Assembly: GCA_030526515.1 (NCBI GenBank)
Contig: JAUNCQ010000024.1
Coordinates: forward strand, 1 to 34,474
Length of the DNA stretch: 34,474 nt
Direction: 5' to 3'
Origin: Coriobacteriia bacterium
Lineage (GTDB): Bacteria; Actinomycetota; Coriobacteriia; Coriobacteriales; Eggerthellaceae
This document shows positions 1-34,474 of this stretch, piece by piece. The notes beneath the pieces were generated by a model. That model searched no databases and was not told the origin of the DNA. It saw only the letters and a program-made list of their open reading frames with translations. The position numbers were made by a program, and so were the translations under genes. Numbering within the stretch: position 1 is the stretch's first letter; the number at the start of each line of letters is the position of its first letter.

Positions 1-60
1 TTTGAACCTGCGACCTCTGCGTCCCGAACGCAGCGCTCTACCAAACTGAGCCACAACCCG
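1..60 (-). tRNA. tRNA-Pro(CGG), 3' part cut by the window edge
   Basis: Read on the minus strand from position 60, the sequence gives acceptor strand CGGGTTG, a D-arm GCTC...GAGC, an anticodon stem CTGCG/CGCAG and loop TTCGGGA. This places anticodon CGG (Pro, codon CCG) at positions 34-36. The variable loop and 5' side of the T-arm (GCAGG TTCAAA) follow before the window ends. About 16 nt of the 3' end are missing. A well-formed promoter lies just upstream. Confidence 0.93.
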
Positions 61-30383: not shown

Positions 30384-31385
30384 CTACTCCCCCAGCAGCG
30401 CCCGATACGCGGCGCCCAGGCGCACGAACTCAGCCTGGTCCAGGGTTTCGCCTCGTCGCTTGGGGTCTATGCCTGCCGCAGCCAGCAGCTCCGGCAGGTT
30501 CTCCAGCACCGTGGCGCCCACCGCACCACGACCGGCGAAGAAGGTCTTGAAGGAGTTGGAAATGGTCTTGCGACGATTGGCGAACGCAGCGTCGGCCACC
30601 GTGCACACGTCCCGCAGCTGGGCGGGGGTCAGCACGTTGCCATCGTCGTCGGTGACCTCCACGCGATTCAGCCGCAGCACCGCGGAGTCCACCCGCGGCG
30701 GCGGGAAGAAGTTGTTGGGGCTCACCGGGAAGCGCCCGGCCGGCTGCGCGTACAGGTGCAGCTTCACGGTATAGGCGCCGTAGTTCTTGGTGCCCTTCTG
30801 GGCGCACATGCGGTCGGCCACTTCCTTCTGGACCATGACCGTGGCGCTGTCCAGGAAGCCGAAGTCCTGGAAGTAGCCCAGCACCACCGTGGCCGCCACC
30901 GCGTAGGGCAGGTTTGCCACCAGCTTGTTGGGCAGCACGCGCTCGAACTGCGGCGCGTTGGCCTCCAGGTCCGCGACCTGCAGCTCCACGGCGTCCTTGC
31001 TGATCAGCGCATAGCGGTCCCACCACGGCTTCAGGGTGCGCTCGAGCACCTGGGGCAGGTCGGGGTCGCGCTCCACGGACAGCACGCGGCCGGCGCACTT
31101 CAGCAGCGCGATGGTCAACGTGCCCGCACCCGGGCCCACCTCCAGCACGTAGTCCGCCGGGTCAAGCTCCGCCAGGTCCACGATCTTGCGCAGGATGGCA
31201 TCGTTCACCAGGAAGTTCTGTCCCAAGGAGTACTTGGTGTCCAGGCCGTGGGCCTCCAGCACCGCCTTGGTGGCCTTGGGGCTGGCCAGGGGCGAAAGCA
31301 TGCCCTCGTTCCCCAGCACGTCCGCCACCACCTGGCTGGCCAGGGAAAAGTCGGCCACGAACGCGGCGTCGTCGTGCTTAGCCAC
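30384..31385 (-). CDS. rsmA: 16S rRNA dimethyladenosine transferase (RsmA/KsgA)
   Basis: The product is 333 aa, longer than the usual 270 because of about 45 extra N-terminal residues. YSLGQNFLVND is the KsgA substrate-loop signature; VLEVGPGAGTLTIAL is the SAM motif; KLVANLPYAVAATV contains the NLPY catalytic motif; NNFFPPPRVDSAVLRL is the conserved C-domain start. It dimethylates two adjacent adenosines in helix 45. The start is GTG at 31385 with GGGAGG 8 nt upstream, overlapping the upstream stop by 8 nt (coupled). The metG-tatD-rsmA context agrees with the family. Confidence 0.95.
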   Translation of the reverse strand: MAKHDDAAFVADFSLASQVVADVLGNEGMLSPLASPKATKAVLEAHGLDTKYSLGQNFLVNDAILRKIVDLAELDPADYVLEVGPGAGTLTIALLKCAGRVLSVERDPDLPQVLERTLKPWWDRYALISKDAVELQVADLEANAPQFERVLPNKLVANLPYAVAATVVLGYFQDFGFLDSATVMVQKEVADRMCAQKGTKNYGAYTVKLHLYAQPAGRFPVSPNNFFPPPRVDSAVLRLNRVEVTDDDGNVLTPAQLRDVCTVADAAFANRRKTISNSFKTFFAGRGAVGATVLENLPELLAAAGIDPKRRGETLDQAEFVRLGAAYRALLGE

Positions 31386-32523
31386 GCTTCTTGCCTCCCT
31401 TGCCGCCCTTGGCAGCGCCGCCCTTGGCGCCAGCCGCGCCCTGGCCCTTGCCGCCGTTGGCGCGGGCACCGGAGCGGCCCTGGCTCACCGGACGGCCGGT
31501 GTTCTTCTTGCCGGAGTCGGAGCGACGCTTCTTGGACTGGTTTTCCTTACGCGGATTGCGATTGTTGGTCTGGTTGCCGCCCTTGGTGGCGCGCTTCTCG
31601 CCGCGACCGCGGGTATGGCCACGCTTGCCTGCCTCGGCGGACTTGCGGCCGCGCTCCTCCACCTGCTCATCGTGGAAGTGCAGCACCGGGCGGGCGGCGG
31701 GCTCTTCGTCATAGGGGACGAAATCGTAGTCGTCCTCCTCTTCGTAGACCTCGTCCACCGGCTCCTCGGGCAGGTCGGCCCACTCGGTCGGCCCCTCGTC
31801 CTCGGGCTCGCTTTCGTCCTGCTGATCCTGACCCGGGACCACGGCGGTGCCGGTGAGCATGTCCATGATCAGCGGGTCGCCCACGATATCGCCCTCCTCG
31901 GTGACCTGGCCCACCCAGTCGAACACGGTCTCCAGCTTGAAGCCGGCGCAGGCCACGGCGGACTTCACGGAGGTGACCAGGGCGTCGATGCCATGGGGGT
32001 CGCCGCCGTCGCCCACCACGTGCAGGATGGCCGGGCGCACTGCGGTCGCGAAGGGACGGCCCTCGGCCGCGGCCTGCTCGCGCTGGGCGCGGGTGGCCAT
32101 GAAGTAGGGCTGCAGACGATCCAGCAGCGCCTTCAGCTGGGCGGGGGCGCCCGCGAAGTACACGGGGCTCACGATGTAGAGCTCGTCGGCGTGGTCCAGC
32201 AGCTCATAGACGTCGTTCATGTCGTCGTCGATGAAGCAGCGGCGCGGGACCTCGTCGCCGGCGCTGTTGCGGGCGGTGAAGCTCACCGTGCGCACGCCGT
32301 CCTCCAAGTGCAGGTCAAAGCCGTCCTCATCGTCATAGGGGCCCTCCGCCAGGCGCTCGCACAGGCCGCAGCCCTTGCAGCCGGCAATGCTCACCTGGGA
32401 AACGCTCACCAGCGCCAGCTCGTCCTCCGGAGCCTCGGCGATGCACGCTTCGAACAGGTCCTTGGCCATCTTGGCCGAACGGCCGTTGGCGCGCGGAGAT
32501 CCGCAAATGATGAGTCGGTCCAT
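31378..32523 (-). CDS. Flavodoxin-like NAD(P)H/FMN reductase with acidic and basic disordered tails
   Basis: The product is 381 aa. Residues 1-205 resemble multimeric-flavodoxin/FMN-reductase proteins: LIICGSPRANGRSAKMAKDL (FMN phosphate loop), C49-C52-C55 in GCKGCGLC, and ADELYIVSPVYFAGAPAQLK. Residues 235-275 are strongly acidic (DESEPEDEG, EEEDDYDF). Residues 285-381 are Lys/Arg/Gly/Asn-rich (RGHTRGRGEKR, KKRRSDSGKK, KGGKGGKKRG), resembling RNA- or nucleic-acid-binding tails. The start at 32523 follows AAGGGAA. It overlaps rsmA, so a link to ribosome or rRNA work is possible but inferred. The enzymatic substrate is unknown. Confidence 0.8.
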   Translation of the reverse strand: MDRLIICGSPRANGRSAKMAKDLFEACIAEAPEDELALVSVSQVSIAGCKGCGLCERLAEGPYDDEDGFDLHLEDGVRTVSFTARNSAGDEVPRRCFIDDDMNDVYELLDHADELYIVSPVYFAGAPAQLKALLDRLQPYFMATRAQREQAAAEGRPFATAVRPAILHVVGDGGDPHGIDALVTSVKSAVACAGFKLETVFDWVGQVTEEGDIVGDPLIMDMLTGTAVVPGQDQQDESEPEDEGPTEWADLPEEPVDEVYEEEDDYDFVPYDEEPAARPVLHFHDEQVEERGRKSAEAGKRGHTRGRGEKRATKGGNQTNNRNPRKENQSKKRRSDSGKKNTGRPVSQGRSGARANGGKGQGAAGAKGGAAKGGKGGKKRG

Positions 32524-32678: not shown

Positions 32679-33785
32679 CTACCAGTTCAGGCGGTTGGCC
32701 TTGGCCTTGGCCTCATGGGCGCGCTGCCATTCGGTGGGCTGGCGCTCCAGCAGCTCCTTGGCGTTGGCACGCAGGCGCTTCAGGAAGGACTCGCGGGCGG
32801 GACCGGGGGCTTCTCCCCGCAGATCCGCCAAGAACTCCGCGGTCAGCACGGTGTAGTCGGGCTGGCACTCGGAGCCGCGCAGGGGCACCGGCGCCATGTA
32901 GGGGGCGTCGGTCTCCGTCAGCAGGCGGTCCAGGGGCACCAGCTTGGCGCCCTCGCGGGCGTCGTCGGAGTTGGTGAAGGTCACCACGCCGCCGTAGGCA
33001 ATGTAGCAGCCGGCGTCGATCCACGGCCGCAGCTCCTCCGGGCCCAGGCCGCAGCAATGCAGCAGGGTCCCGGCCTCGGGGAAGCCCTCCTCATGCAGGA
33101 TCTCCAGGGCCTCGTCGTGGGCCTCGCGAATATGCAGGGCCACGGGCAGGCCGGCCTCCTTGGCCATGCGCAGCTGGGTGCGGAACACGTCCCGCTGCAC
33201 GTCGCGGGGGCTCAGGTCGTAGTGGTAGTCCAGGCCGATTTCGCCCACGGCATTCACCCGGGGGTCGGCCATGAGGTCGTACAGGTGCGCCTGCACCTCA
33301 GGCGTGAAGTGGCGAGCGTTGTGCGGGTGGACGCCCACGGAGATGCGCATCCGCGACACGCGCGGACAAGGGGTGCCTCAACAGCGGGGATTGAGCCGGT
33401 GCACGTACATGCCGGCCACGCGCTGCCAGGTGCTCATCTGGTCGAACACCACGGTGCCGTCCTCGGTGGGGTCGGTGATGCAGCAGACGAAATCAACGCC
33501 GTTGATGGTGGCACGGGCCAGGGACAGGGCCGGGCTCTGCATCATGTGCAGGTGGCAGTGGGTGTCGGCCACGGCGGCCTCCAGCTGGGGCGCGGGCAGG
33601 GTGCGCCACTTGCCATGCTTGCGCTTCTGGTGCAGGTCAGCGTCGTAGAAGACGGGCTCCACGCGGCCCTTTTCGTCCGGCTCTACCTTCACGTGCAGGG
33701 TCTTCACCAGCTGCGACTCCATCAGGCGCTGCTGCTCGAGCGCTTCCTCGGTGGTCATGTTGGTGGGTTCGCCCAGGATCTGCAT
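32679..33785 (-). CDS. tatD: TatD family metal-dependent hydrolase with one in-frame TGA (candidate selenoprotein, otherwise nonsense pseudogene)
   Basis: From ATG 33785 (AAGGAG upstream) the frame reads 135 codons, then TGA at 33380-33378, then continues in the same frame to TAG at 32679: 368 codons counting the TGA as residue 136. All TatD metal ligands survive but are split by the TGA: H76 and H78 (DTHCH) before it; E182, H218, H243 (LLHCCG) and D293 (ETDAPY) after it. Around the TGA the peptide reads LNPRC-U-GTPCPR. A 6-bp hairpin starts 12 nt past the TGA. An N-terminal extension of about 72 residues is basic/acidic and unusual. Without readthrough neither half can be active; the downstream half has a GTG at 33359 but lacks the HxH. 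Confidence 0.75.
33350..33380 (-). promoter_or_regulatory. Candidate SECIS-like hairpin after the tatD TGA
   Basis: After TGA and an 11-nt gap, TCCGCG CGTGT CGCGGA forms a perfect 6-bp stem with a 5-nt loop. The loop begins 17 nt past the TGA and has G in its second position, which agrees with the general bacterial SECIS description as I recall it. No experimental support is available. Confidence 0.45.
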
Positions 33786-33943: not shown

Positions 33944-34474
33944 TTAGCCCACGTTGATGGCGTCGACGTCCAGACGCGGGAACAGCGGGTCGCCCACGGC
34001 CACGTCGTTGCCGGCGGGCAGGCCGCCCCAGGTGGTGGCAGCGGCAATGTCGGTCACGGCGGTCACGTCGCCCAGGCTCAGGCGGGTGAAGACCTCGTTG
34101 GAGGTGTTGGGCATGAACGGTGCCAGGTACAGCGCGATGATGCGGATGGCCTCAAGCAGGTTGTACATGACGGCAGCCAGCTCGCCTGCGGTCTCCTCCT
34201 TCTTGGCCAGGCCCCAGGGTGCCATGTCCTCGACGTAGTGGTTGGCGGCCTCGGCCAGCTTCTGGACGGCGGCGGCGGCGTCGGTGAAGTTCACCAGGCC
34301 CATGTGCTGGTCGAACTCGGCGTACAGGCCCTCGGCGATCTCCTTCAGCGGGTTGTCCACCTGAACGCCCTCGGGCACGGCGGGCACCTTGCCGTCGAAG
34401 TACTTCTTGGTCATGTTGAACACGCGGCTGCACAGGTTGCCCCAGGTGTTGGCCAGGTCGGCGTTGTACACCTG
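33944..34474 (-). CDS. metG: Methionyl-tRNA synthetase, C-terminal part (5' end outside the window)
   Basis: The 176 visible codons are open to the window edge. NADLANTWGNLCSRVFNMTKKY is the typical start of the MetRS anticodon-binding helical domain; WGLAKKEETAGELAAVMYNLLEAIR and ALYLAPFMPNTSNEVF continue it, and DPLFPRLDVDAINVG ends the protein. The C-terminal tRNA-binding (EMAP-like) domain found in some MetRS is absent here. Catalytic HIGH and KMSKS lie outside the window. The downstream genes tatD and rsmA match the common metG-tatD-rsmA order. Confidence 0.93.
   Translation of the reverse strand, partial: QVYNADLANTWGNLCSRVFNMTKKYFDGKVPAVPEGVQVDNPLKEIAEGLYAEFDQHMGLVNFTDAAAAVQKLAEAANHYVEDMAPWGLAKKEETAGELAAVMYNLLEAIRIIALYLAPFMPNTSNEVFTRLSLGDVTAVTDIAAATTWGGLPAGNDVAVGDPLFPRLDVDAINVG

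Follow-up and report, generated by a model that had tools for sequence, protein, structure and literature searches.

The tatD gene of an Eggerthellaceae bacterium, carried on a stretch of DNA of 34,474 nucleotides (the window), is interrupted by a single in-frame TGA, which raises the question of whether this codon ends translation or is read as selenocysteine (Sec). A preliminary description had proposed a selenocysteine-containing TatD, with a recent nonsense mutation or a sequencing error as the alternative. Comparison across the Eggerthellaceae supports the proposal: judged on sequence comparison, the gene very probably encodes a selenoprotein form of a housekeeping metal-dependent nuclease. 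This degree of confidence applies to the insertion of Sec and not to the role of the residue, which is considered separately below.

The tatD frame and its surroundings

One tatD frame of 368 codons runs from ATG to TAG on the minus strand of the window, with the TGA at codon 136 as its only internal stop (Table 1). The earlier observation that a single stop separates two halves of tatD in the same frame is thus confirmed. The full-length translation scored 200.1 bits against PF01026 (cut-off 27). Its score against TIGR00010 was 183, below the cut-off of 206, and the best-matching stretch began past the insertion described below. The metal-binding and catalytic residues were taken from E. coli TatD, a Mg-dependent 3′–5′ exonuclease of DNA repair (PMC4176340). 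Their equivalents are complete in the window protein: H76 and H78 lie ahead of the TGA, and H153, H155, E182, H218, H243, E291 and D293 lie past it, so every TatD metal ligand is intact on one side or the other, as had been claimed.

The gene order metG–tatD–FMN reductase–rsmA was kept in nearly all relatives examined, with Sec-type and non-Sec tatD alike. This shared order indicates that the window gene is the ordinary syntenic tatD of its lineage. The FMN-reductase/flavodoxin-like gene has a low-complexity basic tail and, in nearly every relative examined, separates tatD from rsmA. The suggestion that it encodes a dedicated electron donor for the Sec residue is unsupported, since it is the neighbour of tatD with or without Sec. 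At the other end of the window (positions 1–60, minus strand) a tRNA gene is truncated by the window end. The genome is GC-rich. The 22 genes of the window stop at TAG (15) or TAA (7) and never at TGA, and such dominance of TAG is unusual; metG orthologues of the Eggerthellaceae stop at TAG in 75 cases, TAA in 37 and TGA in 4.

Table 1 Features of the tatD locus, in window coordinates
Feature	Position	Strand	Basis or remark
tatD, UGA read through as Sec (predicted)	32679–33785	−	368 residues, stop TAG; orthology from the gene order metG–tatD–FMN reductase–rsmA
In-frame UGA, codon 136, probably read as selenocysteine	33378–33380	−	Column holds UGA in 26 genomes (12 genera) and Cys in 10 more; selA and selB both missing from 9 of the latter
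Cys135, vicinal to Sec136	33381–33383	−	Cys in 18/26 Sec forms, Thr or Ser in 8/26
SECIS-like hairpin, 6-bp stem, 5-nt loop CGUGU (33356–33360)	33350–33366	−	Perfect in 26/26; two covarying pairs; synonymous freeze
His153-Pro-His155, equivalents of E. coli TatD H62/H64	33321–33329	−	17 residues past Sec; E. coli numbering after PMC4176340
metG, 3′ part, upstream neighbour (context)	33944–34474	−	Gene-order comparison
FMN-reductase/flavodoxin-like gene, downstream of tatD (context)	31378–32523	−	Adjoins tatD in Sec and non-Sec genomes
rsmA/ksgA (context)	30384–31469	−	Gene-order comparison

Selenocysteine decoding in the source organism

The preliminary description had named selA, selB, selC and selD as the genes to look for, and all four were found. 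In a family search of the genome selA (530.7 bits), selB (379.8 bits) and selD (347.8 bits) scored above their cut-offs, as did tRNASec (66.6 bits), which ARAGORN also called as tRNA-SeC. The genes for selA, selB and tRNASec adjoin each other on one contig (C22). On the same contig lies selD, which has a UGA within its GGUxxK motif and so is itself Sec-containing, and the genome holds two further UGA-bearing genes, both formate-dehydrogenase-like (fdhA). The source organism decodes selenocysteine. The genus has one other genome (G001; 98% completeness, 8% contamination), in which selA and selB are present and no TatD match was obtained.

The lack of TGA among the 22 stop codons of the window would also fit a UGA that has been reassigned as a sense codon throughout the organism. 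Against this, release factor RF2 (prfB) is present (453 bits), and no in-frame TGA interrupts rpoB, rpoC or metH in the window. Moreover, 12 of the 26 Sec-type tatD genes found in the family themselves terminate in TGA, which refutes reassignment for the Eggerthellaceae, and for the source organism it can be set aside almost completely.

Distribution of the Sec and Cys forms

A protein search over 138 Eggerthellaceae genomes retrieved 130 TatD loci, nearly all of which could be read between the D-x-H-x-H and G-x-H-P motifs. UGA was found at the identical TatD column in 26 genomes belonging to 12 genera, some of them finished chromosomes, one being a single contig of 3,632,260 bp. The consensus around the residue in these forms is [CTS]-U-[GS]-x-P-x-P-[RC]-V-[PS]-R. 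Cys occupies the column in a further 10 loci (genera g9, g24, g20, g31, g3 and g36), and in g9 and g24 both the Cys and the UGA forms occur. The homologue comparison proposed earlier therefore gave Sec or Cys in relatives at position 136, together with many members that have neither. In loci without Sec or Cys the loop is of variable length. Five non-Sec loci (L115, L123, L142, L146 and L147) carry long low-complexity inserts exactly in the loop that bears Sec in the others, with a peptide containing NMSDLKIDGAE repeated in L147. Outside the family, in a search of 398 genomes of the class, the two TGA-containing TatD matches inspected among those listed (G381 and G402) were ordinary terminal stops.

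Whether TatD has Sec or Cys is associated with the presence of the Sec machinery. Either selA or selB was present in 25 of the 26 UGA genomes, the lone exception being an assembly that is 56% complete, and both were absent from nine of the 10 Cys-form genomes, the tenth having selA or selB. With counts uncorrected for relatedness, this association gave a Fisher p of about 1e-6. When the UGA genomes were compared with all non-UGA genomes, 44/104 of which have selA or selB, p was 2.6e-7, again uncorrected for relatedness.

That one stop alone parts two in-frame halves is what a fresh nonsense mutation or a sequencing error in an ordinary or decaying tatD would also produce. Such an accident does not account for the recurrence of UGA at one TatD column in 26 genomes, finished chromosomes included, and this disposes of the error. 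The conservation over 12 genera likewise contradicts a recent mutation, as do the covarying hairpin and the purifying selection on both flanks of the UGA that are described below. Mutation and error together retain a negligible probability.

Sec and Cys TatD orthologues (L096 and L103, respectively) coexist within one genus, and on a tree built with the Sec column masked the distribution of the two forms requires at least two to three changes. The window TatD, on a long branch, does not group with the remaining 25 Sec forms. This separate placement implies either an old trait that was lost many times, or else its gain or transfer on more than one occasion.

The SECIS-like hairpin

The preliminary description had placed a perfect 6-bp hairpin with a G-containing 5-nt loop 12–28 nt past the TGA. 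This was exact: the sequence is TCCGCG CGTGT CGCGGA, spanning +12 to +28, and its loop begins 17 nt after the UGA. An uninterrupted 6-bp stem at the same distance, with loop CGUGY, was present in all 26 UGA-type tatD genes. Two pairs of the stem, 12–28 and 16–24, covary, each being C-G or U-A with both partners always switching together. In pair 16–24 the 5′ change replaces Arg by Cys and the 3′ change is synonymous. Both the covariation score and the number of cells paired lay above 500/500 shuffles and above every slid control. In L103, the sole Cys form from a Sec-decoding genome, one pair of the hairpin has been lost.

The published limits for a bacterial SECIS are a loop of 3–9 nt, a stem of 4–16 bp, a minimum free energy (MFE) of at most −7.5, a G at one of the first two loop nucleotides and a distance of 16–37 nt from the UGA (PMC13188914). 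The window hairpin falls within them, with a loop of 5 nt, a stem of 6 bp, G at loop position 2, a distance of 17 nt and, for the 45 nt of tatD from the UGA, an MFE of −13.0. Its geometry also resembles that of the other hairpins of the same genome. Those of the two fdhA genes have 6 bp and the loop GGUCU 18 nt after the UGA, and that of selD has seven pairs, G-U included, and the loop CGGGU 16 nt after the UGA. Taken by themselves, selD and the two formate dehydrogenases (L151, L154 and L156) thus share 6–7 pairs, a 5-nt loop and a spacing of 16–18 nt, and the common stem, loop and spacing may possibly represent a SECIS consensus of the lineage.

Selection on the coding sequence

Within most genera dN/dS was about 0.1–0.2 on both sides of the UGA, the pairs of sequences compared not being independent; genus g24 was an exception, with 0.76 upstream. 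Purifying selection is thus indicated on both sides of the codon, and the earlier statement that the gene is not a decaying pseudogene holds. Synonymous differences per site within genera were 0.025 in the hairpin compared with 0.40 upstream and 0.37 downstream, from pairs that again are not independent, i.e. synonymous change in the hairpin is about 15-fold below that in its surroundings.

A further reading of the locus is that UGA does terminate translation and re-initiation yields the second piece as a product of its own, or that a near-cognate tRNA inserts another residue. The window gene does offer a place to restart, an ATG (MRISVGVHP) 10 codons past the UGA with a GTG start 3 codons ahead of it. 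In most relatives, though, Val or Ile replaces this Met (VRIATGCHP), and the product of a restart would be a barrel lacking strands 1 and 2. Re-initiation and near-cognate insertion alike leave the hairpin, the Cys replacements and the association with selA/selB unexplained, and both are considered very improbable.

The evidence is best explained if SelB, with Sec-tRNASec, decodes UGA136 as selenocysteine. Insertion would be directed by the downstream hairpin, whose loop starts at 17 nt, and the product would be one full-length TIM-barrel enzyme of 368 residues. Within it Sec, often beside Cys, is expected in a surface loop just ahead of the His-Pro-His strand of the active site, where the selenol may tune the nuclease or sense its oxidation and is unlikely to act as a metal ligand.

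Position and possible role of the Sec residue

An AlphaFold model of the protein (mean pLDDT 69, about 64 near residue 136) is a TIM-barrel, and the best match among solved structures was 6l25 (E 4.5e-16, 33% identity). The modelled Sec lies in the loop after helix 2 (residues 111–131) and before strand 3 (residues 145–150). On this model the residue belongs to an insertion specific to the lineage, which separates helix 2 from strand 3 and lies outside the TatD core. In a TIM-barrel the helix-to-strand loops face away from the active site. Sec is therefore probably remote from the metal site, and a role as metal ligand is unlikely.

The preliminary description had read the context as C-U-x-x-x-C, typical of redox motifs. 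The window gene does have this context (C135-U-G-T-P-C140), but it is not conserved: Cys135 is present in 18 of the 26 Sec forms and Cys140 in only 6. With C140 rare and C135 replaced in a clade that includes probable Eggerthella genomes, CUxxxC was rejected as the defining motif, and no redox motif can be regarded as established. At column 152 (GCHP), Cys was more frequent in Sec forms, 23/26 versus 38/92. This Cys is missing from the window protein and hence is not proposed as the general partner of Sec.

That Cys stands in for Sec in genomes lacking the Sec machinery points to thiol/selenol chemistry. The preferred role, put forward tentatively and at rather less than even probability, is that of a redox-responsive or protective selenol that serves as a redox switch or sensor of a repair nuclease. 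A more specific version, in which Sec together with Cys135 or a Cys of the barrel switches TatD with the redox state, making it a Sec-dependent DNA-repair nuclease, is possible though unlikely. If it were true, selenium status and oxidation would govern nucleic-acid processing in Eggerthella-type gut bacteria.

A comparably plausible account, also short of an even chance, is that Sec is metal-binding or structural, or that it is nearly neutral and retained only because its replacement would take a codon change. The loop is variable, the partner Cys is unconserved and some relatives have neither Sec nor Cys, all of which would suit such a residue; vicinal C-U pairs are in addition found in the catalogued SaoL, SaoC and HgcA (PMC13188914). 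It fits less well that Cys takes the place of Sec where the machinery is absent, several of these Cys forms having preserved the flanking motif. As many Sec-decoding relatives have a TatD that lacks both residues at this position, Sec is not required for TatD function generally.

Comparison with known systems

Neither TatD nor any nuclease is among the 87 selenoprotein families catalogued in 2022 (PMC9312934), and the 119 prokaryotic families catalogued in 2026 (PMC13188914) likewise lack TatD, nucleases and PF01026. A search of paper titles and abstracts found nothing on topic for TatD with selenoprotein or selenocysteine.

To our knowledge no other Sec-containing TatD has been described. With it the selenoproteome would gain a housekeeping TIM-barrel nuclease, a class missing from both catalogues. 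Its carriers include cultured species of the human gut, Eggerthella lenta probably among them. Gene callers that treat UGA as a stop would split such tatD genes or label them pseudogenes. The natural exchange of Sec and Cys across genera, tracking loss of the Sec machinery, offers a comparative system for the advantage of Sec over Cys.

The window protein resembles the TatD family (PF01026; TatD and YcfH of E. coli, 6l25/2gzx of S. aureus) in its domain, its metal-binding and catalytic residues, its TIM-barrel and the metG–tatD–rsmA gene order, and differs in having additional residues after helix 2 and ahead of strand 3, with the Sec/Cys motif. With the SelB/SECIS-dependent selenoproteins FdhA and SelD it shares an in-frame UGA, a stem of 6–7 pairs with a 5-nt loop 16–18 nt on, selABCD in the genome and Cys homologues. 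Unlike these, TatD has no thioredoxin fold, is no obvious oxidoreductase and stands outside the 2022 and 2026 catalogues. The closest parallel to the Cys directly before Sec in 18/26 TatD forms is provided by the vicinal C-U selenoproteins SaoL, SaoC, HgcA and KCU-star, which belong to other protein families; in TatD the vicinal Cys gives way to Thr or Ser in the remaining 8/26.
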